DNA from: Saccharothrix sp. S26
Lineage (GTDB): Bacteria; Actinomycetota; Actinomycetes; Mycobacteriales; Pseudonocardiaceae
Direction of reading: 5' to 3'
DNA: 64,000 nt
NCBI RefSeq assembly: GCF_021390395.1
Contig: NZ_JAJUWT010000003.1
Coordinates: forward strand, 248,001-312,000
Position 1 is the first letter of the stretch. The number at the start of each line of letters is the position of its first letter. Positions 12,201 to 26,205 of the stretch are shown here, piece after piece. The position numbers were made by a program, and so were the translations under genes. Below the pieces are notes generated by a model that searched no databases, had not been told where the DNA came from, and saw nothing but the letters and a program-made list of their open reading frames with translations.

Positions 12201-13424
12201 TCAGCGGCCGCGGCGGCGGAGTTCGGTGGCCAGCAGGGGCATCAGCTCGTCCACGAACGCGCAGTCGTAGCCCTGGCCCGCGACCAAGGACGTGGCGAAC
12301 TTGGTCTTGGCCACCTCCTCCGACGACGCGCCGATCATGCCGTCGAGCGCGATGCCGACCTCCTCCAGCACCCGGTCCACCTGCGACGTCCGGTACCCGC
12401 GCTGCGCCGGCCCCGCCAACGGGATCTTGATCAGGCGCAACTGCTTCCACGACGTGATCGCCGGGAGCGCGCTCGGCCGCAACGGTCCCTCGCCCAACTG
12501 CTTCTCCACCCGCGCCAGGAACGCGTCCACCTCGGTCTCGTCGTACCCGCGCCGGCCGAACATGGGCCGGCTGAAGCGGACCTCGCGGACCTCGCGGGCG
12601 GTCAGGTCGTCCTGGCCGAGCAGCGTGTTCTCGATCCGGTCCAGGAACTTGTCCACCTGCGACTCCTGGTAGCCGCGGCGTCCGCGCGGCGGTTTGCCGA
12701 ACGCGGCGGTGCGGACGTCACGGGCGGTCAACGGGCGCGTGCCGGGGCCCGGACGAGGCCGGACCGGAGGAGCCGGCGGGGCAGGCGTCGGGGCGAACGA
12801 GGAGGGTGGCGCGGGCATCCGCTCCAACGTGACCACGACCAGGTCGAGGAACGTGTCCACGTCGTCCTCGTCGTACCCGATCTGGCCGGGCGGGGCGTAG
12901 CTGAACTCGAAGTCCTGCACCTCGCGGGCGGTCAGGTCGTCACGACCCGCCAGGGTGTTCTCGATCCGGTCGAGGAACGCGTCGATCTCGCCCTCGTGGT
13001 AGCCGCGGTTGCCCGGTCTGGGCTTGTGGAACCGCACCCCGCGCACGTCCTGCGGCGTCAGTCGGGCCGCGGGTCTCATCCCGGTCGACGTGGCGTGCGC
13101 GCCCTGCGCCGGGGCGGTGGCCTGGCGTCGCTGGGGCGTGGAGCCGAGCGTCTCGGCCACCAGGTCCATGAACGCGTCGACCTCGGCCGCGTAGTAGCCG
13201 GGCCGCGCGGGTCTGAACCGCACCCGCCGCACGTCCTGCTCGGTCACGTCGTCACGGCCCAGCAGGGTCGCCTCGATGCGGTCCAGGAAGGTGTCCACCT
13301 GACCCTCGTCGTACCCCGGTTGGCCGGGCGGCGGGCGGTGGAAGGCGACCTGCCGCAGATCCTGCGCGCCCAACAGCGGCGCCGGATGGGCCGGCAGGTG
13401 CTGACGAGCGTCGAACCCGACCAC
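12201..13424 (-). CDS. DivIVA-motif protein with eight tandem repeats
   Basis: 407 residues made of about eight copies of a 30-40 residue unit: a short strand (VxFxxPxxGxRGY), an acidic turn, then VDxFLDRIExTL. Examples are GYDEGQVDTFLDRIEATL, GYHEGEIDAFLDRIENTL and GYQESQVDKFLDRIENTL; the seventh and eighth are diverged. The unit corresponds to the N-terminal DivIVA-type motif, which in DivIVA/Wag31 targets curved membrane at poles and septa, but no long coiled coil is present. A Pro-rich linker separates repeats 4 and 5. GTG at 13424 has a strong AAGGAGG 8 nt upstream. A four-repeat relative is encoded at 15782-16390. Function is not known; multivalent membrane or polar scaffolding is an inference. 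Confidence 0.85.
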   Translation of the reverse strand: MVGFDARQHLPAHPAPLLGAQDLRQVAFHRPPPGQPGYDEGQVDTFLDRIEATLLGRDDVTEQDVRRVRFRPARPGYYAAEVDAFMDLVAETLGSTPQRRQATAPAQGAHATSTGMRPAARLTPQDVRGVRFHKPRPGNRGYHEGEIDAFLDRIENTLAGRDDLTAREVQDFEFSYAPPGQIGYDEDDVDTFLDLVVVTLERMPAPPSSFAPTPAPPAPPVRPRPGPGTRPLTARDVRTAAFGKPPRGRRGYQESQVDKFLDRIENTLLGQDDLTAREVREVRFSRPMFGRRGYDETEVDAFLARVEKQLGEGPLRPSALPAITSWKQLRLIKIPLAGPAQRGYRTSQVDRVLEEVGIALDGMIGASSEEVAKTKFATSLVAGQGYDCAFVDELMPLLATELRRRGR

Positions 13425-15236: not shown

Positions 15237-15792
15237 TCTGGGCGGCTTCCAGACCCAGTTCCAGCAGCGCCTCCACGGCGTCCGCCGCCCGGTCCAGCTC
15301 CAGCGCCAACTGCTTGCGCTCCACGAGGGAGAAGTCGCGCAGGACGTAGTCCGCCGGGTCCATGCGACCCGGCGGCCGGTCCACGCCGAACCGCACCCGG
15401 TGGTAGTCCTTGGTGCCCAACGACTTCGTGATCGACCGCAGCCCGTTGTGCCCGTTCTCGCCGCCGCCGAGCTTGAGCCGCACCGTCGCGAACGGCAGGT
15501 CCAGCTCGTCGTGCACGACGATGATCGACGACGGCGGCACCTTGTAGAAGTTCGCCGTGCCCGCCACCGGCCCGCCGGAGGTGTTCATGTAGCCGCGCGG
15601 CTTGGCCAGCACGACCCGGCGGCCGGCCAACCGGCCTTCCACCACCTCGGCCCCGCCCTTGTGGGCCTTGAACCTGCCGCCCACCCGCGCGGCCAGCTCG
15701 TCCACCACGAGGAAGCCGACGTTGTGCCGGTTGCCCTCGTACTTGGGGCCGGAGTTGCCCAGCCCGACGACCAGGGCGACGTCATCGACCAC
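15223..15792 (-). CDS. pth: Peptidyl-tRNA hydrolase
   Basis: Releases tRNA from peptidyl-tRNA dropped by ribosomes; 189 residues, normal for the family. Landmarks are [20 protein letters not shown] with the catalytic His, [39 protein letters not shown] and the Asn/His-rich active site region. GTG at 15792 overlaps the stop of the upstream DivIVA-motif gene by 11 bp, indicating cotranscription with rplY. The 3' end carries a 16-nt duplication. Confidence 0.96.
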
Positions 15793-16390
15793 GGAACCGC
15801 AACTCCTGCTCCAGCTCGTCCAACAGGGCGTCCACCGCGCGCACCTGGTAGCCCCGCCGCAGCCCGGACGTGGTGGTGAACCTGGTGTGGCGCACCTCGC
15901 CCGAGGTCATCCGACCCCGCCCGTCCAGCGTCGCGGCGGCCCGGCCGAGGAACGCGTCGACTTCGCCGCGATCGTAGCCGTTGGGCGAGCGCGGCAGCTT
16001 CACCGCCAGCAACGCCTCACCGGTCTGCAACGTGGTCGGCGGCACGTGCCCGGACCGCAGCTGGTGCTCGCACGCGGTCAGGAAGTCGTCCACGGCCCGC
16101 TGGTCGTAGCCGCCCGCGATCTCCGTGAACACGATCGTGCGCACCTGGTCGGGGTGCAGCTTCGCCCGCCCGGCGAGCGCGTCGGCGATGCGCAGCACGA
16201 ACGCGTCCACCTGCGCCGGGTCGTAGCCCTTGCCCCGCTTGCGGGGGAAGCGGGTGGCGCGCACCTGCGCCGGGCTGAGGAACGGCAACGGCACGCCACC
16301 CCAGCCGTGCGGCGGGGGAGGCGTGCCGTTGGAGTTGCCCGACGTGATGGGCTCAGCCTTCTTCGGTGGCCTCGGACTCGGTGGCCTCAC
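15782..16390 (-). CDS. DivIVA-motif protein with four tandem repeats
   Basis: Up to 202 residues; a short Pro/Gly-rich N-terminus precedes four DivIVA-like units: [54 protein letters not shown] and [18 protein letters not shown]. It is a shorter relative of the protein at 12201-13424. The longest frame starts at a GTG at 16390 inside the rplY 3' end; a shorter form from GTG at 16294 would avoid the overlap and still contain all repeats. It sits between rplY and pth, which are adjacent in most actinobacteria, and overlaps pth. Function is unknown. Confidence 0.75.
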
Positions 16391-16958
16391 CGGTGTCGCC
16401 GTCCAGCTCGGCGGCGGTCGGCGCGGCGTTCACCGCGAGGACCATCGCTTCACCGTCGGTCACCAGGGTGGTGCCGGCGGGCAGCGACAGGTCGGAGGCG
16501 TGCACCTGGGTGCCGGCCTCCAGGCCCTCGATGGAGTACTCGACCTGCTCGGGGATGTTCAGCGCGTCGGCCTCCACCTGGATGGTGGTGAGGTCCTGCG
16601 TGAGCAGGGTCGCCGCGGCCGGGTCGCCGGTGAGGACGATCGGCACCTCGACGGTGACCTTCTCGCCCCGCTGCACCAGCAGCAGGTCGACGTGCTCGAT
16701 GTAGTTCTTGATGGGGTGCGTGGTGACGGTCTTGGTCAGCGCCAGCTCGGTGGAGGACTCGATGTCCAGCGTGAGAACTGCGTTCTGACCGTGCTCACGG
16801 ACGACACGGGCGAACTCCAGCGCCGGCAGGGCCAGGTGCTTCGGGTCGGAACCGTGGCCATAGAGCACCGCGGGGATCTTGCCGGCGCGGCGGGTGCGGC
16901 GGGCGGCGCCCTTGCCGAACTCGGTGCGCTGCTCTGCGGCGAGACGGACCTCGGACAC
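16353..16958 (-). CDS. rplY: 50S ribosomal protein L25/general stress protein Ctc
   Basis: Binds 5S rRNA in the large ribosomal subunit; 201 residues, the long Ctc form. The N-terminal L25 domain has KGAARRTRRAGKIPAVLYGHG, then the conserved HIDLL-like segment (YIEHVDLLLVQRGEKVTVEVP), and a C-terminal beta domain (TPAAAEL type, Glu-rich tail). GTG at 16958 has GGAG about 10 nt upstream. In relatives rplY follows prs; here a 4.4-kb NTPase gene lies between. The 229-bp upstream gap probably carries its own promoter but no clear box was picked. Confidence 0.95.
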   Translation of the reverse strand: MSEVRLAAEQRTEFGKGAARRTRRAGKIPAVLYGHGSDPKHLALPALEFARVVREHGQNAVLTLDIESSTELALTKTVTTHPIKNYIEHVDLLLVQRGEKVTVEVPIVLTGDPAAATLLTQDLTTIQVEADALNIPEQVEYSIEGLEAGTQVHASDLSLPAGTTLVTDGEAMVLAVNAAPTAAELDGDTGEATESEATEEG

Positions 16959-17187
16959 GGTGGGGCTCTCCTAACGGTCTGGCCTGGTAAACGTCGGCGG
17001 GTGCGTCGGGCGGGGCGAAGCGTGGGTTGGCCTGCGGCGGCGGGCGGCGCGGAGGGTGAACACGCGCGGCATCACAACCGCCGCGTCGATCACGCCGAGC
17101 GTGATGCTCGCCCTCGCCGAGGCAACCTGGCCAGTGTAGGCCCGACCGCGGGACGGGGCCTAATCGGGGTCCGCGGGCGGGCCCGGG

Positions 17188-20100
17188 CTAGGCCGAACGG
17201 CTCGCGCGGGCGATAGCGGCCAGTTCCCCGATCATGGCTGGGAGCGCTTCCGGTACCTCTCGGCACAGGACGTCGATGTTGTACGTCCAGTCTTCGTTCG
17301 CGATGGCACGGGCGAGCAGCCGTCGTCCCGTCCCTGGTTCGAGGTCTTCGACCAGGCTTGTCGCATTGACCGTCATCTCAGCGACCGTGATCGAATCGGC
17401 GATCATCGCGGCGCGGGTTCGGTCGCCCGACCACGCGAACGCCGTGGCCACCGCATAAAGCGCGTCACCGCGGTGCTTGGGAGTCGTGATCGAGTGGGCG
17501 AGGTCCACGGCCCGGTCGTGGTCGCCGAAGGCGATGACGGCCTCGGCGACCGAGACGAGCGCTGAGCTCCGGTGGAATGCCTCGCCGATCGAGCGGGCCA
17601 ACGCTTCAGCGCGGTCCAGCAGCCGCGCCGCCCGGTCGAAACAGCCTGCGTCGGTCATCGAGTCGATCGCGCTCTTCAACGGCCGGGCGGAGTGCTCGGT
17701 TTCGATCAACGACAAGGCAAGTCGTTCGGCCCGGTCCAGGTCACCCGCTCTGATCGCCGCGTCCACCACCAAGCCCATCATCGATCCGCGGTTGAAGCGC
17801 GTGACGGTGCGGTGGACCAGTGCCTCGGCCCGGTCAAGGTCACCGGACGCGATCGCGATCTCGACGTTCAGCTCGGCCGGCAGCCCGTCGTGGTCCTCGG
17901 CTTCCCAGTCCGCTACGAGCTGTGCCGCCCGTTCGTGGTTGCCGGTGGCGATCACCCTTCGCACCATGTTGGTGACCGCGAATCTCCGACGAGCGGCTTC
18001 GGGGATGGCAGCGATGAGCGCCGTCGCCCGGTCCAGGTCTCCTGTCGTGATCGCCGCCTTGACCAGCGACTCGAACATCAGGCTCCGGTAGCCGGGGTCA
18101 GCGATGGAACGGGCCAGCGCCTCGGCGTGGTCGAAGTCGCCGTTCGCGAGCGCCGCGTGGACCGACGACGCGACTGACTTCTCCTCCGGCTCGGCCGAAC
18201 CGGTGGTACTCCGTCGCGCTGTGCGGCGAAACACGAACGCGGCCGTGTCGACCCTGCTCAGAGCAGAGTCACGGATGGGTGGGTCGCTGATCGAGTAGGC
18301 GAGGGCTTCCGCCTCGGTGACGTCTCCCGCCATCCCGACGTCCAGAACGAGGTCGTTGATCGCCCGGTCCCGCTGGTACGTGTCACTGATGCCTCGGGCG
18401 GTGGCCTTGGCCTTGTCGAGCAGCGTCTGGGCGCGTTCCGGATCGATCTGTCGCGCGGACGCGAACAGCTTGCTCAACGCCCTGCTCCGGTGTGCCGCGT
18501 CGGTGATGGAGTCGGCCAACGCCTCGGCCCGCCCGAGGTCGCCGATGCGGACGACCTCCCTGATCACAGGCGTCAGCATGTTGCCTTGCCAGTCGGTGTC
18601 TGCCGTGTGCCGTGCCAAGGCCGTAGCGAGCTGAAGTGCTCTTGTCGCCCGTTCCACATCGCCGCTCGCGGTTGCCGCCCTGATGACAGCGACCAGGGCC
18701 CGCCCCTTGTAGGCGGACCTCGAGATCGACCGGGTGAGTGACTCTGCTCGGTCGAGGTCACCGGCGGCGACCGCGGCTCGAGCTATCAGGACGATCGCCT
18801 GGTCCCGATAGGTGGTGCTGGTGATCGACTCCACCACCTGCCGGACTCGGCTGACTTCACCGACCGCGACCCCCGCCTGGACGACGGCGTAGAGCGCCTC
18901 GCTCCTGCGCCTGGCATCGGGCATGGCGTGAGCGGACGCCGTGGCCCGGGCGAAGAGCCGGTCGACCCGCGCCTCGTCCCCGGCCGCGGTCGCCGCCCGC
19001 ACCGCCGCCGCCAACGCCTGCCCGTGGCGCACCGAGGCGTCGGTGAAGTCGGCGAGCGCTTCGATGCGATCGAGGAAACCGGGGACTCGATCGAGGTGGC
19101 CAAGGCGGAGCGCGCTCTCCGTCAACACCTGCAACGCCCGGCCGCGGTGGCGCACGTCGGTGATGGCCGCGGTCAGCGCGTCCGCGCCGTCGAAGTCATC
19201 GGCGGCGATGGCCGCGTAGATCGCGGTGAGCAGGGCGCGCCCCTGGTTCATCCCGGCCACGAGCCGGCCCAGGCTGGCCCTTCTGAGCAAGTCGGCTTCC
19301 AGGTCCGGATCGTCGGAGGCCATCACCCCGCGCACCGCCGAGGTGAGCGACTGGCCTGGGTCGGTGGCGTCGGTGGTGGCCCTCATCGCCACCAGCGCTC
19401 GGTCGAAGGCCGCGCTCCCCTGCCTTGCCCAGGGCACGTGGACCAGGGCGGAGAACCGCCGCGAGGTGTCCATGATCCGCTCGGCCGACATCGACGCGTG
19501 CTCCAGATCGCCCCTCTCGACCAGGTGCCGGACGACGGTGGTCAGCGCCCGTCCTTGAGCCGCGGTGTCGGCGATCTCCAAGGCCAGCGCCTCCGCGCGA
19601 TCGAGGTCGTCGCCGGCCACCGCCTCGACTACGGCCAGCAACGCCAGACCCCGGCTCCGGGTGTCCTCGATCGCATGGGCCAGCCTGATCGCCCGGTCGA
19701 GGTTCCCCCTCGCGGCCGCAGCGACCACCACGGCACGGAGCGCCTCCCCCCGGAATCGCTGGTGGACGATCGACCCGGCCAAGTGTTCGGCGTGGCCGTG
19801 CTCACCGAGCTCGATCAGCGACCGGACCACGGACGTGAGCGCCGCACCCTGCCGGCGGCTGTCCTTGACCAGCTGGAAGGTCGTCTCGGCACGGGTGATC
19901 AGGACACGTGCCCGGTCGAGGTCACCGCGGTCCACGATCGCTGCCACGACGGACTCGAGGGCGTCGCTGTGGTAAGGCAGATCACCGATGGACGAGGTCA
20001 GGTCGACAGCCCGGTCCAGGTCACCGAGCCTGATCACCGCCTCGACAGCCGCGCGCAGTGCCCGGTCCCGTTCGTTGCTCGTGGTGACAGAGGTCGCCAG

Positions 20101-21543
20101 CGATTCGGCGCGGTCGACGTGGCCGATGCCGGCCCACAGCGCCGGCAGATCACGTGGTAGCCACTTGTTGCGGCCGGTGAGGTGGTCACGGTGCACAGCC
20201 AGCCGCGCCATCGCCGTCAGGTTCGGTGTCTCGTCGGACAGCATGAACTGCTGGGTGGCCGCGATCTCGGCCAACGCCGCCGCGTCGCCGCCGGACACCT
20301 CCAGCATGCGGTCGTGGCGGGCCGGGTCGATGCAGCACCCGAGCATGCGGTCGAGGTCTTTGGTGCTGGTCAGCATCGCGAAGTAGCCGCGCAACAGGTA
20401 CTCGGGGGTGTCGGTCGGCCACCGGCGGTCACGGTAGGTGTCGGCCCAGCCGTGGAGGCGATCGCGGTAGTCGCGCATGCGGGACGCGCCGAGCATATCG
20501 ATGGCCTTCAGGTGCAGTTCCTCGTGGCCGAGCAGGTAGACGTCCGGCGACCGTCCCGGCTCGTAATGGGCATCCCGCCTGCGGAAGCTGCGGCCTGTCA
20601 CGGTGCGCAGGTGGTCGTCGACGTCCCACGTCGACCAGCCCGTCAGCTCCGCCAGGTCGGCCGCGGTGAGGCCGCCGCCTGCGGCGGTGAGCAGGCCGAG
20701 CAGGTCGTGCTCGGCCGACGTGCCGTGCAGGAGGCGTTTCAACTCGCGTTCCATGTCGGCGCGCTCGGCCTGGGCCGCCGGGGACCTGGTCAACGGGCGC
20801 GCGATGTCCGGCACCCGCAGCGGGTGGTGGTCGGGGACGTCGGCCGGGATCGGCGGGTCGGGGCGGCCGGCGACGATCACCCGCATACCCGCCGGTGGGG
20901 CGATCGGCAGCAGGGCCGCGATGCTGTGCGCGTCCGGGCCCGTGGTCACGCCCCGGTCCTCGTCCAGGCCGTCCACCAGGAGCACGAAGTGCTCGCCGCG
21001 GTCGCGACAGGCCTTGGCCGCATCGTCCAGCAGACCGAGCAGGTGGGCCTCGCGGGTCGCCTCGGTCAACAGCGGCGGAAGGTCCTGGCCGAGGATGGTG
21101 ACCAGTTGTTCCAGCACGTTTTCGATGAAGGCGTTCCGGTCGTTCTGCGCGGCGAGACGGGCCGTGACGAAGAACGAGACCACCCGGACACCCGGGGGAG
21201 GGTCCAGGACGAACGTCGACATCAGTGCCGACTTGCCTGACCACGCCGCCGCCCGCCACCAGCGGTAACCGCCGGCGGTCGAGGGGGATGTGCAGAACGC
21301 CGCCAGGTCGGCCAGCTCGGCCTCCCGACCGACCAGCCTCGGCGGTGCGATGCGCCGCACCTGCTCCCGGTACCGGGTCTTCACCGGTGCGCCGGTCACC
21401 AGGTTCACGTCGCCGTGCACGACGCCGATCTGCGCCACCGAACCGTGCACCGTGCCGGCCACGGAGTTGGACGACGAACGGCCCGACGCAAGGGGTGCGC
21501 CGGGCCGTTCATGTTCGAGCGCCATCCGGGGATCATCCCGCAC
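17188..21543 (-). CDS. STAND-type NTPase with long helical repeat array
   Basis: 1451 residues, not matched to a named protein. Residues 30-50 hold a Gly/His/Val motif (GTVHGSVAQIGVVHGDVNLV) seen ahead of many actinobacterial STAND ATPases. A P-loop AAAWSGKS (98-105) and Walker B VLLVDGLDED (187-196) define a NACHT/AAA-like domain, followed by a winged-helix-like region (LTAADLAELTGWSTWDVDDHL). From about residue 490 to the end runs an array of roughly 25 TPR-like units of 34-36 residues (GDLDRAEALA..SI....RGRALxAVV). No N-terminal effector domain is visible. The start (GTG 21543, or ATG 21525) is 13-31 nt after the prs stop, so it is probably cotranscribed with glmU-prs. STAND proteins commonly sense ligands and oligomerise, often in phage defence or signalling; the role here is an inference. 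Confidence 0.8.
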   Translation of the reverse strand: MRDDPRMALEHERPGAPLASGRSSSNSVAGTVHGSVAQIGVVHGDVNLVTGAPVKTRYREQVRRIAPPRLVGREAELADLAAFCTSPSTAGGYRWWRAAAWSGKSALMSTFVLDPPPGVRVVSFFVTARLAAQNDRNAFIENVLEQLVTILGQDLPPLLTEATREAHLLGLLDDAAKACRDRGEHFVLLVDGLDEDRGVTTGPDAHSIAALLPIAPPAGMRVIVAGRPDPPIPADVPDHHPLRVPDIARPLTRSPAAQAERADMERELKRLLHGTSAEHDLLGLLTAAGGGLTAADLAELTGWSTWDVDDHLRTVTGRSFRRRDAHYEPGRSPDVYLLGHEELHLKAIDMLGASRMRDYRDRLHGWADTYRDRRWPTDTPEYLLRGYFAMLTSTKDLDRMLGCCIDPARHDRMLEVSGGDAAALAEIAATQQFMLSDETPNLTAMARLAVHRDHLTGRNKWLPRDLPALWAGIGHVDRAESLATSVTTSNERDRALRAAVEAVIRLGDLDRAVDLTSSIGDLPYHSDALESVVAAIVDRGDLDRARVLITRAETTFQLVKDSRRQGAALTSVVRSLIELGEHGHAEHLAGSIVHQRFRGEALRAVVVAAAARGNLDRAIRLAHAIEDTRSRGLALLAVVEAVAGDDLDRAEALALEIADTAAQGRALTTVVRHLVERGDLEHASMSAERIMDTSRRFSALVHVPWARQGSAAFDRALVAMRATTDATDPGQSLTSAVRGVMASDDPDLEADLLRRASLGRLVAGMNQGRALLTAIYAAIAADDFDGADALTAAITDVRHRGRALQVLTESALRLGHLDRVPGFLDRIEALADFTDASVRHGQALAAAVRAATAAGDEARVDRLFARATASAHAMPDARRRSEALYAVVQAGVAVGEVSRVRQVVESITSTTYRDQAIVLIARAAVAAGDLDRAESLTRSISRSAYKGRALVAVIRAATASGDVERATRALQLATALARHTADTDWQGNMLTPVIREVVRIGDLGRAEALADSITDAAHRSRALSKLFASARQIDPERAQTLLDKAKATARGISDTYQRDRAINDLVLDVGMAGDVTEAEALAYSISDPPIRDSALSRVDTAAFVFRRTARRSTTGSAEPEEKSVASSVHAALANGDFDHAEALARSIADPGYRSLMFESLVKAAITTGDLDRATALIAAIPEAARRRFAVTNMVRRVIATGNHERAAQLVADWEAEDHDGLPAELNVEIAIASGDLDRAEALVHRTVTRFNRGSMMGLVVDAAIRAGDLDRAERLALSLIETEHSARPLKSAIDSMTDAGCFDRAARLLDRAEALARSIGEAFHRSSALVSVAEAVIAFGDHDRAVDLAHSITTPKHRGDALYAVATAFAWSGDRTRAAMIADSITVAEMTVNATSLVEDLEPGTGRRLLARAIANEDWTYNIDVLCREVPEALPAMIGELAAIARASRSA

Positions 21544-21556
21544 GGCGGTGGGGGTG

Positions 21557-22540
21557 TCAGGCGTTGCCGTCGAACAGGGAGGTCACCGAGCCGTCCTCGA
21601 AGACCTCCTGGATCACGCGGGCCAGCAGGGGGGCGATCGGGAGGACGGTCATGGCGTCGAAGCGCTTCTCGGCCGGGATCGGCAGGGTGTCGGTGAACAC
21701 GACTTCACGCGCGCCGCAGTCGCGCAGCCGTTCCACGGCCGGGCCGGAGAGGACCGGGTGGGTGGCGGCGATGACGACGTCCGACGCGCCCTCGGCGAGC
21801 AGTTGCTCGACCGCCTTGGTGATCGTGCCGCCGGTGTCGATCATGTCGTCGATGACGACGCACAGCCTGCCCTCGACCTGGCCGACCACCCGGTTGGCCA
21901 CGACCTCGTTCGGCCGCAGCGGGTCGCGGGTCTTGTGGATGAACGCGATCGGCGTGCCGCCGAGGGTGTCCGCCCACTTCTCCGCGAGCTTGGTGCGGCC
22001 GGCGTCGGGGGAGACGACGGTGATCTCGCGGCCCGCGTACTTGTCCTTGATGTGCTCGGCCAGCAGCGGCATGGCCCACAGGTGGTCCACCGGGCCGTCG
22101 AAGAAGCCCTGGATCTGCGCGGTGTGCAGGTCGACGGCCACCAGCCGGTCCGCGCCCGCGGTCTTGAACAGGTCGGCCACCAGGCGCGCGGAGATCGGCT
22201 CGCGGCCGCGGTGCTTCTTGTCCTGCCGCGCGTACGGGTAGAACGGCATGATCACGGTGATGCGCTTGGCCGACGCGCGCTTGAGCGCGTCCACCATGAT
22301 CAACTGCTCCATCAGCCACTGGTTGATGGGCGCGCAGTGCGACTGGATGACGAACGCGTCGCAGCCGCGCACGCTCTCCTCGAACCGCACGAAGATCTCG
22401 CCGTTGGCGAAGTCGTACGCCGACTGCGGGGTCACCGACACGTTCAGGTGCTTGGCCACCTGCTCGGTCAGCTCGGGGTAGGCCCGCCCGCCGAAGAGCA
22501 TCAGGTTCTTCTTGGGTGTCCCGGCCATCGTGGGGTTCAC
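21557..22540 (-). CDS. prs: Ribose-phosphate pyrophosphokinase
   Basis: Makes PRPP from ribose-5-phosphate and ATP for nucleotide, His and Trp synthesis; about 327 residues. Landmarks are KNLMLFGGRAYPELTEQVA, YPYARQDKKHRGREPISARLV (ATP loop), the divalent-cation/PRPP signature VVIDDMIDTGGT and ATHPVLSGPA. GTG at 22540 is favoured because AAGGG lies 7 nt upstream and it follows the glmU stop directly; ATGs at 22555 and 22528 are alternatives. It is the middle gene of glmU-prs-(NTPase). Confidence 0.95.
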   Translation of the reverse strand: MNPTMAGTPKKNLMLFGGRAYPELTEQVAKHLNVSVTPQSAYDFANGEIFVRFEESVRGCDAFVIQSHCAPINQWLMEQLIMVDALKRASAKRITVIMPFYPYARQDKKHRGREPISARLVADLFKTAGADRLVAVDLHTAQIQGFFDGPVDHLWAMPLLAEHIKDKYAGREITVVSPDAGRTKLAEKWADTLGGTPIAFIHKTRDPLRPNEVVANRVVGQVEGRLCVVIDDMIDTGGTITKAVEQLLAEGASDVVIAATHPVLSGPAVERLRDCGAREVVFTDTLPIPAEKRFDAMTVLPIAPLLARVIQEVFEDGSVTSLFDGNA

Positions 22541-22541
22541 G

Positions 22542-24020
22542 TCAGCGCCCTTCATCGGTTGTGCCTGCATTCTCGGGCGTCAGGGCGCGCTCCGCCGCTT
22601 CGGCCGAAGGCGTGCCCGCCCGGCGGGACACCACCCATCCGTCCAGGTTGCGCTGGGGCCCGCCGGACACGGCCAGCGCACCGGGCGGCACGTTCCGCCG
22701 CACCACGGTCCCCGCACCGGTGTAAGCGCCGTCACCGACCGTGACCGGCGCGACGAACATGTTGTCCGAACCGGTGCGGCAGTAGGACCCGATCGTGGTC
22801 CGGTGCTTGTTCACGCCGTCGTAGTTCACCGTGACGCTGGCCGCGCCGATGTTGGAGTGCTCGCCGATCGTGGCGTCGCCGATGTAGCTCAGGTGCGGCA
22901 CCTTGCTGCCCGCGCCGATGTCGGAGTTCTTCGTCTCCACGAAGGTGCCGATCTTGCCGCCCTCGCCGAGCCGGGTGCCCGGCCGCAGGTACGCGAACGG
23001 CCCCACGGACGCGCCCGCGCCGATCTCCGCGCCCGAGCCGTGCGTGCGGACCACGGTCGCGCCCGCACCGATCACGCACGCCGACAGCGTGGTGTCCGGC
23101 CCGACGACCGCGCCCTCGCCGACGGTGGTGCCCGCCCGCAGCTGCACGTTCGGCTCGATCAGCACGTCCCGCTCCAGCCGCACGTCGGCGTCCAGCCAGG
23201 TGGTGGCCGGGTCGACCACGGTGACGCCCGCGCGCATCGCCCGTTCCACGATCCGGCGGTTGAGCTCCGCGCCCAGCCGGGCCAGCTGCACGCGGTCGTT
23301 CACGCCCTCGACCAGCCACGGGTCCGACGTCACCAGCGCGCCCACGCGCCGCCCGTCGCCGCGGGCGATGGTCAGCACGTCGGTCAGGTACAGCTCGCCC
23401 TGGGCGTTGTCGGTGGACAGCCGGGACAGCCCGTCGCGCAGCACGGCCGCGTCGAAGGCGTACACCCCGGAGTTGATCTCGGTGATGGCCTGCTGCTCGG
23501 GCGTGGCGTCCTTCTGCTCCACGATGCCCTCGACCGCGCCGTCCGCGGACCGCACGATCCGGCCGTACCCCGTGGGGTCGGCCACCACGGCGGTCAGCAC
23601 GGTGACGGCGTTGCCGCGCGCGCCGTGCTCGGCCAGCAGCCCGCGCAGGGTGTCGGCGTCCAGCAGCGGCACGTCGCCGTAGGTGACGACGACCGTGCCG
23701 CCCAGGTCGTCGGGCAGTTCGGCCAGGCCGCAGCCGACCGCGTGCCCGGTGCCCTTCTGCTCCTCCTGCACCGCCACGGTGACCTTGCGGTCCAGCGCGG
23801 TGGACAGGCTGTCGAGGTGCTCGGCCACCGCGGCGCGGCCGTGGCCGACCACGACGGCCAAGTGGTCCGGTCCGGTCCCGGCGGCGGCGCGCACGGCGTG
23901 CTCCACCAGGGAACGACCCGCGATGCGGTGCAACACCTTCGGAGTGGCTGAGCGCATGCGGGTGCCTTCACCCGCTGCGAGGACGATCGTGCTGACTGGG
24001 GTGGGGACACCCTCGAGCAT
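22542..24020 (-). CDS. glmU: Bifunctional UDP-N-acetylglucosamine pyrophosphorylase/glucosamine-1-phosphate acetyltransferase
   Basis: Makes UDP-GlcNAc for peptidoglycan in two steps; 492 residues. The N-terminal uridylyltransferase has [32 protein letters not shown] and TYGDVPLL. The C-terminal left-handed beta-helix acetyltransferase shows hexapeptide repeats, [14 protein letters not shown], and the active-site region [16 protein letters not shown] at 24020 has AGGGAG upstream and gives the usual N-terminus; the frame is open further upstream but lacks homology. It overlaps closely with prs. Confidence 0.96.
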
Positions 24021-24087: not shown

Positions 24088-25713
24088 CTAAGCCTCCGAG
24101 GAGGGCTCGACCTCCACGGCCGCAACCTGGCAGCCACCTCGGCGCTTCGCCACGTACATCGCGGAGTCGGCCCGGGCCAGCGCCGCGTGGGCCGCCTCGC
24201 GCGGCCGCACGGAGATCACGCCCACCGACAGCGTCACGCCTCTGGACAGGTCGGAAGGCAGGCAGGCGACCGCATCCACGGCCCGCGCGAGGGCCGCCTC
24301 GGCGGCGTGCAGGGGCGCGCCGGGCAGCAGCACGACGAACTCGTCGCCGCCGTAGCGGGCCACCAGGTCGTCACCCCGCAACGCCTGGCGCAGTGTGCTC
24401 GCAATCACGCGCAGCACGTCGTCTCCCTCGGCGTGCGAGTGCCGGTCGTTGACCACCTTGAACCCGTCCAGGTCGACCAGCGCGATCGCCATCGGGTGGG
24501 TCTGCGCGTTGATCAACGCGGCCAGCCGGTCGTCCAGCGCGCGCCGGTTGGGCAGGCCGGTCAGCGGGTCCTGCAACGCCTGCTGCGCGATCGCGCCGTG
24601 CGCGCGGGTCAGCCGTTCGTGGTCGCGCCGGGTGAGCAGGGTCGCGGTGCGGGCCTCCTGCATCATCCACAGCTCCACCTCCAGCGCGTTGGCGTAGGTC
24701 TGCAACGCCGAGATGGTGCGCTCGCCGTGCGGGCCGGACATGCGGGCGTACTCGCGGGTCAGGCACAGCATCAGGGTCGGTTCGGAGGTGTCGTGCTCCA
24801 GCCGGTCGCGGGCGTCGTGCAGCACCTGGAGCGCCTGTTGCGGCAGCTCCTCCATCTCCAGGCAGCGGGCCAGCGCGATCGACACGATGATCAGCTCGCG
24901 GGCGTACATGGCCAGCTCGCGCAGCGTCCACAGCCGCGCGATGTGCTCCGCGCCCGGTTTGGCCAGCGCGTGCGCCGCGCCGATCACCGGCACCTGCTCG
25001 GCGGCGCTGCGGTCACGGCGGCCGGGGTGCAGCGACTCGCGGAACGGGCCCTCGACCGCGGTGGCGATGGCCGACGCGGTGGTGAACCGCTCGCCCGCCT
25101 CCTCGAAGTTGTCCACCCGCTCCAGCCGCAGGCCCCAGCCGATCAGCAGCCGGGCCCGGTTGACCAGGTGCACGTAGATCTGGTGCGGGTTGGCGCTGTC
25201 CCGGATCGCGTTGTGCGCCCGCGCCAGCACCTCGTCGGCCATCTCGTAGACGCCGAGCTGCGTGAGCACGAGCCCGGTGGACTGCAACGCCGACGCCAGC
25301 AGCCGGTCCCACGTGCGCTTGTCCAGCATCGGGTCGGGGGCGAGGTCCTCCTCCAGCATCGCCAGGCCGCTGGCGACCTCGGTCAACGCCCGGTCCTCGA
25401 ACCCGCCGAGCAGGTAGCGGCGGCCGCGCAGGGCGTGCGCCTCGGCCTCCAGCACCAGCAGGCCGTGGCGGCGGCAGTGGGCCAGCATCTCGTCCAGCAC
25501 GGAGTCGGACAGGTCGACCAGGCCGGGCGTGACGATCCGGACCACGGCGGCCGCGCGCAGCAACTGGCCGACGATCCTGGGCTCGCCGCGCCCCTGCGCC
25601 TCGGCCAGGATCAGGTCGACCTCGTGCGCCGCGTCGAGCTGGTCGGACAGGTGGCTGCTCTGGGCCACGGCCACGAGCTCACTCGCGCGGCCGACCAGCC
25701 ACGCGTCGGACAT
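24088..25713 (-). CDS. GGDEF domain protein, probable diguanylate cyclase
   Basis: About 541 residues. The C-terminal third is a GGDEF domain: [38 protein letters not shown] and the active loop [13 protein letters not shown]. The RxxD inhibitory site (RGDD) sits five residues before GGDEF, so product inhibition by c-di-GMP is likely. The N-terminal 380 residues are helical, possibly TPR-like, with no recognised sensor and no membrane segment. The frame is open across the tRNA upstream, so the start must lie after it: ATG at 25713, or GTG at 25734 with a weak AGGG. It lies between glmU and tRNA-Gln. Confidence 0.88.
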
Positions 25714-25826
25714 CTCGTGGAGCGCCGGCGCCACGTTGCCCTGCTCGTCGACCGCTTCCTCGTGCAGCGACTCACACCCCCATGCAGACGCAGGGCGGCC
25801 GGGGCCTTCGTGGCCCGGCCTCCTCG

Positions 25827-25897
25827 CTCCGCCACCAGGATTCGAACCTGGACCATCGGAACCAAAATCCGAGGTGCTGCCTTTACACCATGGCGGA
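25827..25897 (-). tRNA. tRNA-Gln (anticodon TTG)
   Basis: A 71-nt cloverleaf without encoded CCA. The acceptor stem is TCCGCCA/TGGCGGA with discriminator G. The anticodon stem TCGGA/TCCGA encloses loop TTTTGGT, giving anticodon TTG for CAA codons. The T arm is CAGG-TTCGAAT-CCTG. A tRNA-Gln near glmU is also typical of mycobacteria. Confidence 0.96.
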
Positions 25898-26205
25898 ACG
25901 GCCGGGGCTCGCCCCGACCGCGCGAACACATGTTGTCACGAGTGGCCCTCGGAGGTCAGCACCGCCACTCAAGTGGCGGCAATCCCACCGTAACTCGATC
26001 ATGACACTGCGTGTTGTCCCAGGTCAGGACGTCGCTCGACGTGGCCTACGTCACGGCTGGGTGAACTCGTCGCGGCGTCTGGTCGACGCGTCGCGGTCGC
26101 GCACGCGGCTTCTCCGACCCCTATTCGACACGATTTCGTGCGAAACAATCACCCGCTTAACTACTTGGCGTAGTCGGTCGAGCACGACCGGGCGGGCGCG
26201 TCGCG
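25898..26205. other. Gene-free stretch upstream of tRNA-Gln, with one palindrome
   Basis: No convincing gene on either strand. It should contain the tRNA promoter on the minus strand and the 3' end region of the hydrolase gene. The one clear structure is CCGCCACTCAAGTGGCGG at 25962-25979, a perfect inverted repeat with 8-bp arms and a 2-nt centre. It is too tight for a hairpin terminator and better suited to a protein operator. Confidence 0.5.

Follow-up and report, generated by a model that had tools for sequence, protein, structure and literature searches.

How does an NTPase that carries no recognisable effector domain pass on a signal, and what is its gene doing inside a housekeeping operon? 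Both questions are raised by a 64,000-nucleotide stretch of the Saccharothrix sp. S26 genome (contig NZ_JAJUWT010000003.1, positions 248,001 to 312,000; hereafter the window), in which a STAND-TPR receptor gene (17188..21525 from its likelier ATG to its stop, minus strand; PADLOC STAND_TPR, E 1.1e-103) lies between prs and rplY. We consider it moderately probable that the receptor is a bacterial NLR resembling those of bacterial amyloid signalling (BASS), bearing a candidate amyloid signalling motif and acting in trans on shared effectors. This reading draws on the fold class of the receptor, the sharing of its motif, the conservation of small proteins that carry the motif, and linkage in relatives; a role in defence would follow by analogy, from fold and family resemblance.

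The initial annotation had suggested that an N-terminal HGxVxQxGxxHGDV motif, which is present in the translation, may recruit a partner. The docking or candidate amyloid signalling motif delimited here (SNSVAGTVHGSVAQIGVVHGDVNLVTG; residues 25-51 counted from the GTG; 21391..21471, minus strand) matched the hidden Markov model at E 6.2e-12, a value that is circular, as the receptor sequence is part of the model. The motif is unstructured as a monomer in the predicted structure (predicted local distance difference test score, pLDDT, below 50), as are nearly all of residues 1-51, and residues 1-47 matched no Pfam family at E<=10. Diverged forms of the N-terminal segment NSVAGTVHGSVAQIGVVHGDVNL are found in many STAND homologs at other sites.

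A motif profile made from 17 N-terminal segments of this STAND family, selected for showing the motif, was run on whole genomes. Circularity affects matches to the 17 source genes, but not those to NB-ARC, NACHT, kinase-like, Bell-like and membrane-type proteins. The genome that contains the window gave 11 matches at E<=1e-3, including the receptor. Five are NB-ARC and TPR proteins (L103, L109, L110, L111 and L112; in L103 and L109 NB-ARC falls short of the curated cut-off), two are NACHT proteins (L105 and L108, the latter also with HEAT) and one is a protein kinase below cut-off (L106); seven NTPases besides the receptor carry the motif. The other two matches (L104 and L107) are small proteins, encoded at other places in the genome, whose motif lies close to the C-terminal end, an arrangement that supports the proposed recruitment of a partner. 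A further NTPase (L113, E 0.017) was kept apart from this count and seven weaker places (E 0.38-7) were left out of it, while L114, L115 and L116 (E 0.019, 0.028 and 0.27) were dropped as chance matches after reading. Within the window, a scan of all frames of at least 25 residues found that the receptor gene alone reached the motif threshold. Across 25 genomes of the genus, with the best 150 candidates per genome scored, the profile gave 188 matches in sum (1 to 23 per genome), of which 20, selected for short frames, were fetched; the reversed profile, for which no positive control exists, gave 0 matches in the same genomes. Among 60 genomes of wider kinship, 31 had matches, comprising the 25 of the genus and 6 of the 35 others.

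The first small protein (L104, 110 residues, MPEPMLVSIAASLASRAVAGLYELV...) has the motif as its last two dozen residues. Orthologs were found in 19 of the 25 genus genomes, and in 18 of them the motif lies 0-2 residues from the end (two reaching only about E 0.01). Its size and motif position are as described for Bell proteins in PMC7889193, and a stretch near its N-terminus is moderately hydrophobic (one Kyte-Doolittle window, maximum 1.34). The second protein (L107, 122 residues, G000:C2:46656-47021) is of membrane type, with one clear and one weak hydrophobic segment (the second by eye). In the window's genome its gene lies between truB and ribF, upstream of rpsO; orthologs (L218-L239) occur in 22 of 25 genus genomes and stand beside ribF in 20 of those 22. 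All seven genomes with a receptor gene at the prs site have both orthologs. The tail of L107 holds a second, C-terminal motif, GGTVHQAGRDIRRD (GGTVHQAGRD). Seven QAGRD-type STAND-TPR N-termini, selected by eye, score 41-55 against this second motif and 23-36 against the first, while the window's receptor scores 23 and 54.

Some further observations concern these motifs. L107 is itself a second candidate immune component in a housekeeping operon, with two different motif types in tandem, and L050, L051, L054, L055, L057, L068 and L080 represent a second class of STAND-TPR N-terminus, of VVQAGRDVN type, that matches the second L107 motif. A cyclase-like frame (by eye; L070:450-1670, minus strand) has the motif NHVSGPASDVVQARDVRGGI near its C-terminal end; a STAND homolog 5 kb away gave no match to the motif profile. 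L255, L262 and L274 have 140-240 residues of unknown type before the motif, followed in L262 by hydrophobic segments (by eye); these are possible effectors or adaptors of other types.

Outside the genus, seven fetched stretches covered 11 of the 15 motif matches. Four of the six matched genomes (G032, G033, G047 and G049) hold exactly two matches each, one near the start of an NB-ARC protein and one near the end of a small protein, 1.3-7.5 kb apart from start to start. Outside the motif, the small proteins of G033, G049 and G032 share 60%, 35% and 35% identity with the L104 protein (E 1.6e-24, 4e-10 and 1.3e-8), and that of G047 is of membrane type by eye. The remaining two genomes are G031, with five matches, and G034, whose two matches lie on different contigs.

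The STAND-TPR homologs themselves were surveyed in 80 of 303 relatives. Twelve of the 80 named loci, at least 6 of them contigs of the genus, have this motif type in the N-terminal slot (E<0.05), and in the remainder the slot is filled by larger domains or by short segments of other kinds. TIR_2 and Trypsin_2 were confirmed there (L184, L074 and L075), while no effector model matched the larger N-termini of L146 and L163. Among 10,381 N-to-C comparisons, the top score (76) fell to a Streptomyces fildesensis locus (L193) in which the receptor begins with DARGARGVQIGSGNTQINVF and an abutting upstream protein of 146 residues ends in DARDAKGVQIGDNNTQTNTF, a BASS3/RHIM-like motif being common to the two; for a similar BASS3 peptide (VDLRDAKGVQVGDGNVQINRF), PMC8086366 reports amyloid-like aggregation. 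In four more loci (scores 52-56, against a background of up to 51) the receptor shares another motif, of GDATA type, with a small membrane-type protein nearby. The best five scores (76, 56, 54, 53 and 52) were taken as pairs and the sixth (51, L146, low-complexity) was left out, so the lowest accepted pairs lie little above background. At L154 an abutting small membrane-type protein carries a C-terminal VQAGDVEGDV. Motif types preferred their own type in the score matrix, and not always their own neighbour; GDATA-type receptors often scored as high or higher with effectors of that type from other loci, so it is types that match rather than individual pairs. Since a TIR domain, a trypsin domain or a BASS3/RHIM-like motif can stand in the same slot, the short N-terminus of this family is, as judged from sequence, the occupant of the effector position, matched by the C-termini of small proteins. 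Separately, some small proteins encoded near STAND-TPR genes (L156, L049:11742-12113, L169 and L212), each with two hydrophobic segments, end in GDA(T/V)A..GG.A.(T/S)G-like motifs, sometimes in two copies, which possibly form a separate amyloid-like motif family.

NLR-Bell pairs of the BASS type are reportedly the subject of Dyrka et al. 2020. According to PMC9815663 and PMC7889193, BASS motifs have been recognised through adjacent receptor and effector genes, and the pairs are also treated in PMC8086366. The receptor resembles them as an NLR-type NTPase with a short N-terminal motif that is found again, in the same genome, at the C-terminus of small Bell-like and membrane-type proteins, here candidate effectors. 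Further likenesses are the setting in filamentous actinobacteria and the L193 locus, where the BASS3/RHIM-like motif of a receptor of this STAND family recurs in an abutting small protein. It differs in that it lies in a housekeeping operon, its candidate effectors are unlinked, and NTPases of several families use the same plug. Adjacency was found in relatives, namely the four non-genus genomes (within 7.5 kb) and some STAND homologs, whereas the neighbours of the window's receptor are prs and rplY. We regard the receptor as sharing the motif logic of BASS, a likeness of motif placement, but because of its neighbours do not file it in a named BASS family. Fungal NLR networks with non-adjacent amyloid effectors are described in PMC9815663; there, as here, motif copies on the receptor side are more numerous than those on the effector side, and the two lie at separate sites, whereas the present case is bacterial and its two conserved candidate effectors keep mostly fixed loci throughout the genus.

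Other known systems share the NTPase. PADLOC STAND_TPR (PDLC01173) is described as an ATPase fused to an Xre-type helix-turn-helix and TPR, associated with cas1-less I-E systems in Streptomyces. The likeness covers the NTPase and the region that follows, with a best stretch at profile positions 93-498; the first 92 positions fall outside it, where the receptor has its motif instead, and that stretch together with the Pfam scan of residues 1-47 gave no N-terminal Xre-type helix-turn-helix. Avs proteins and the Apaf-1/CED-4/plant NLR resistosomes have the same NTPase and winged-helix architecture, but no fused effector was found in the receptor and its sensor is a TPR-like array of 33-residue units. 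The plant NRC helper-sensor NLR network relies on a small number of executors that serve many sensors. A similar convergence is suggested here by sequence, although the executors would be small motif-bearing proteins and not NLRs.

The initial annotation had described a STAND receptor without a recognisable effector domain, and both parts of this description are supported by a fold search and a profile check of the N-terminal part. PADLOC STAND_TPR matched the protein in 3 stretches. Pfam matches were weak, all below cut-off and mostly to TPR, NPHP3_N and winged-helix models (the last falling inside the NTPase module), an NCBIfam scan gave one insignificant match, and a related-loci search with the receptor protein alone gave 67 pattern matches, none of them a relative. 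The STAND NTPase module (residues 56-460; 20164..21378, minus strand) was delimited by profile matches, predicted structure and fold search. The P-loop AAAWSGKS (21229..21252, minus strand) and Walker B VLLVDGLDED (20956..20985, minus strand) noted earlier are both present in the translation; the P-loop is a variant Walker A with A in place of the first G, and W101, G103 and K104, like D191-D196 of Walker B, are invariant in 37 sequences. These motifs lie in an AAA-type core followed by a winged helix and a superhelical sensor, as in STAND P-loop NTPases. The predicted structure matches Avs3, Apaf-1 and plant NLRs, Avs3 being the top match by Z (14.3, 364 residues aligned, root-mean-square deviation 21.7), with sequence identity to Avs and Apaf-1/CED-4/plant NLR chains of about 10-14%.

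The sensor is an array of about 27 TPR-like helical units with a period of 33 residues (residues 469-1365; 17449..20139, minus strand), 22 of them above 2 bits. The count of TPR-like units given earlier, about 25, is adjusted accordingly. The period is close to the roughly 34 residues of two-helix TPR units, and the model shows paired helices at 476-549, yet all Pfam TPR matches are below cut-off. The units had been thought very alike, which was not borne out: 18 pattern-selected units share on average 29% amino acid identity (maximum 55%) and 46% nucleotide identity (maximum 62%), and recent expansion of the array was therefore rejected.

The history of the site was followed across the 25 genus genomes, in all of which rplY occurs once at E<=1e-20. 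The prs-rplY interval contains a STAND homolog in seven (G000, G001, G022, G002, G011, G016 and G017) and measures 292-655 nucleotides, prs stop codon included, in 17 others; in G021 it spans 2 kb without STAND and encodes, by eye, what we take to be a small MscS-like membrane protein and a PRC-barrel-like one. Presence in all relatives with a conserved repeat number had been proposed as the mark of a lineage-specific core role, and this holds in part only: the site is occupied in 7 of 25 genomes, and the repeat span divided by 33 varies among the seven copies (27.2, 28.0, 18.2, 18.8, 6.5, 11.3 and 24.3). The gene is therefore neither a core gene nor a recent arrival. Homologs also occur elsewhere, with at least one match at E<=1e-60 in 15 of 25 genus genomes; the named loci among the 80 relatives surveyed include ones in Streptomyces, Micromonospora, Actinoplanes, Lentzea and Frankia. 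Saccharothrix sp. NRRL B-16348 has the closest named relative of the locus, and in the window's own genome (9.08 Mb, 54 contigs) the receptor is the sole match at E<=1e-3.

Among 53 NTPase domains the seven prs-site copies form one clade (97/94), and repeated independent arrival at the site was rejected for this reason. On a five-protein species tree, presence at the site needs 7 changes and is not clustered (500/500 shuffles as low), so that losses or allele exchange are more likely, and the gene probably entered the site once, early in the genus, and was then repeatedly lost or exchanged. The STAND tree places G022 with G002, whereas the housekeeping tree places it nearer G000, and NTPase synonymous divergence (dS) is 0.47-0.56, or 2.6-3.9 times that of prs; tree conflict and high dS would fit allele exchange, the dS also codon bias of prs. 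The window's receptor was compared with those of G001, G022 and G002. The motif (27 codons) has a non-synonymous divergence (dN) of 0.035-0.092, against 0.099-0.181 for the NTPase, 0.111-0.398 for the 18-codon linker that precedes the motif and 0.31-0.68 for the repeats, with dN/dS of 0.21-0.36 in the NTPase, 0.97-1.63 in the linker and 0.50-0.72 in the repeats; the neighbours prs and rplY have 0.06-0.08 and 0.34-0.43.

A 15-base-pair stem-loop lies in the 5′ coding region, between start codon and motif (21476..21510, minus strand), and is a candidate retained prs terminator or attenuator. The stem runs GAACGGCCCGGCGCA-CCCCT-TGCGTCGGGCCGTTC from 21510 to 21476; it is stable relative to shuffles over 120 nucleotides (z -3.18, 1/200 as stable) and over 100 (z -5.27, 0/60). 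In each of the seven site copies the probable start codon is closely followed by a stem of 14 or more pairs, which precedes the motif region, and in all of them the first 100 nucleotides after prs are more stable than dinucleotide shuffles (z -3.7 to -6.8, 0/60 as stable). In four aligned copies 60 of 60 stem cells are paired, with three pairs changed on both sides, and sliding the partner by one base lowers pairing to 40-47%; this compensatory support is strong, not conclusive, given four sequences and a structure derived from the same four. Gene-less relatives mostly have a post-prs hairpin where the site copies have the in-frame one: across 18 such genomes z is -1.3 to -8.2, with 0/60 shuffles as stable in 13 and exceptions in G004 (9 of 60), G024 and G012 (2 each), and G018 and G023 (1 each). 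The gene-less sister G018 has a similar GGGCCCGGCGCACC stem right after prs (by eye). These comparisons suggest that a post-prs terminator has been kept inside the receptor reading frame. No U-tract terminator was found in a scan of 16300-22700, and none behind the hairpin; terminators without a U-tract are common in actinobacteria. The same scan found one promoter-like site (9/12; minus strand, 21560-21532; 0.2 in shuffles) at the prs stop, which, if used, argues against dependence on prs transcription. Simple constitutive co-expression with prs, as initially proposed, is doubtful because of this site and of the hairpin behind the start in all seven copies.

Several observations weigh against a BASS-like receptor acting in trans. 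The candidate effector genes are not adjacent to it, unlike classical BASS pairs, and neither the L104 nor the L107 protein reached a Pfam or PADLOC effector family; the label 'Bell-like' is applied because of size, motif position, a hydrophobic stretch and homology to small proteins linked to NB-ARC genes. Only 13 of the 22 L107 orthologs reach E 0.01 with the motif profile, the others showing diverged versions. G017 has kept the STAND gene at the prs site, but its Bell-like ortholog lacks the motif, no significant match occurs in its membrane-type ortholog, and in the receptor itself the motif has diverged beyond the reach of the profile. In one clade (G004, G012 and G014) neither effector ortholog was found, although G012 has a STAND homolog with a variant motif. 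The motif dN/dS (0.11, 0.70 and 0.36 in the three comparisons, on 27 codons) is not uniformly low. Finally, the motif also stands at the N-termini of kinase-like and other proteins besides NTPases, and may thus be a general interaction tag. An explanation of that kind, possible though clearly less probable, sees in the motif a tag for docking or localisation without amyloid, such as a beta-hairpin with affinity for a common scaffold or the membrane, where receptor, kinase-like and small proteins would meet without templating or a shared death pathway. The disorder of the motif in the monomer model is in keeping with it. Yet the motif is N-terminal in NTPases and C-terminal in small proteins, such pairs lie close together in four non-genus genomes, and in homologs it is exchanged for TIR, trypsin or a BASS3/RHIM-like motif, as predicted for an effector adaptor.

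We consider it unlikely that the receptor is a lineage-specific STAND regulator of MalT/AfsR type, reading a metabolite such as phosphoribosyl pyrophosphate or stress, co-regulated with prs and without an immune role. The site is empty of the gene in 18 of 25 genus genomes, family homologs stand at many other sites, Pfam found no DNA-binding output domain (weak winged-helix matches lie within the NTPase module) and the repeats diverge fast, unlike those of a conserved metabolic sensor. Less likely still is a decaying or selfish passenger of the locus without present function. Its patchy presence, the 7 changes on the species tree and the shortened copy in G017 would suit such a passenger, but the frame is open without stops, the NTPase dN/dS is 0.21-0.36 and the hairpin shows compensatory changes.

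The gene was described initially as coding for 1451 residues on the strand of prs, 13-31 nucleotides behind it and among glmU, rplY and pth, and the frame check and NCBIfam confirmed this. The frame (17188-21543, minus strand) is open throughout, with a GTG 13 nucleotides behind the prs stop codon. This GTG is replaced by CTG in G001, G022 and G011, whereas at 21525 six of the seven site copies have ATG (as in the window) or GTG, G017 lacking the leader; for this reason the ATG at 21525, 31 nucleotides behind prs and residue 7 in GTG numbering, is the likelier start. The upstream neighbour prs (ribose-phosphate diphosphokinase; 21557..22570, minus strand) matched PRK03092 at E 8.8e-180 and the downstream rplY (50S ribosomal protein L25; 16353..16958, minus strand) its NCBIfam model at E 8.7e-84. 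Elsewhere in the window, frames near pth (12201-13424 and 15782-16390, both minus strand) have DivIVA-N-terminal-like units, with 5 and 1 Pfam stretches and more by eye, and these tandem units look unusual. A GGDEF diguanylate cyclase frame upstream of glmU (24088-25929, minus strand) overlaps tRNA-Gln (25826-25897, minus strand) at its start, and its true start is therefore probably further in.

Taken together, the observations are consistent with a model in which a BASS-like receptor combines a STAND NTPase switch with a long TPR-like sensor and carries a short adhesive motif at its N-terminus instead of a fused effector. The repeat array would bind a trigger, possibly a phage product, and the NTPase would oligomerise, as its Apaf-1/Avs3-like fold suggests. 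The clustered N-terminal motifs could then form a cross-beta or other ordered template that recruits and polymerises the C-terminal motif copies on the 110-residue Bell-like and 122-residue truB-ribF membrane-type proteins. Pairing of receptor and effectors is supported because the motif is shared and, for the Bell-like family, also because its genes lie near those of NB-ARC proteins in relatives. The membrane might then be the target of both proteins, with arrest or death of the cell as the outcome, in line with literature proposals on Bell proteins. As seven more NTPases carry the same plug, signals from different receptors would meet in the same effectors. A link to prs is probable for expression, which the hairpin in the first codons would gate.

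A broader combination of these elements is put forward tentatively, as we hold it to be less likely true than not so: a genome-wide, hub-type amyloid immune network in the genus, with a two-socket membrane-type effector and a hairpin-gated receptor in the prs operon. Receptors of several NTPase families (eight here, probably more in some relatives) would use two conserved effectors whose loci are mostly fixed, one lying within the truB-ribF operon. The first motif of the membrane-type effector would fit this receptor class and the second another STAND-TPR class, and, with a terminator hairpin in its own first codons, the receptor would be made only when transcription or translation runs through. 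A literature search gave no paper describing a trans bacterial amyloid network among the matches listed.

If the trans arrangement with shared conserved effectors is true, many orphan actinobacterial NTPases would have identifiable partners, and sensor-executor immune networks in bacteria would become directly testable. The in-frame hairpin, in turn, offers a way to ask how an immune receptor may live in an essential operon without constant production.

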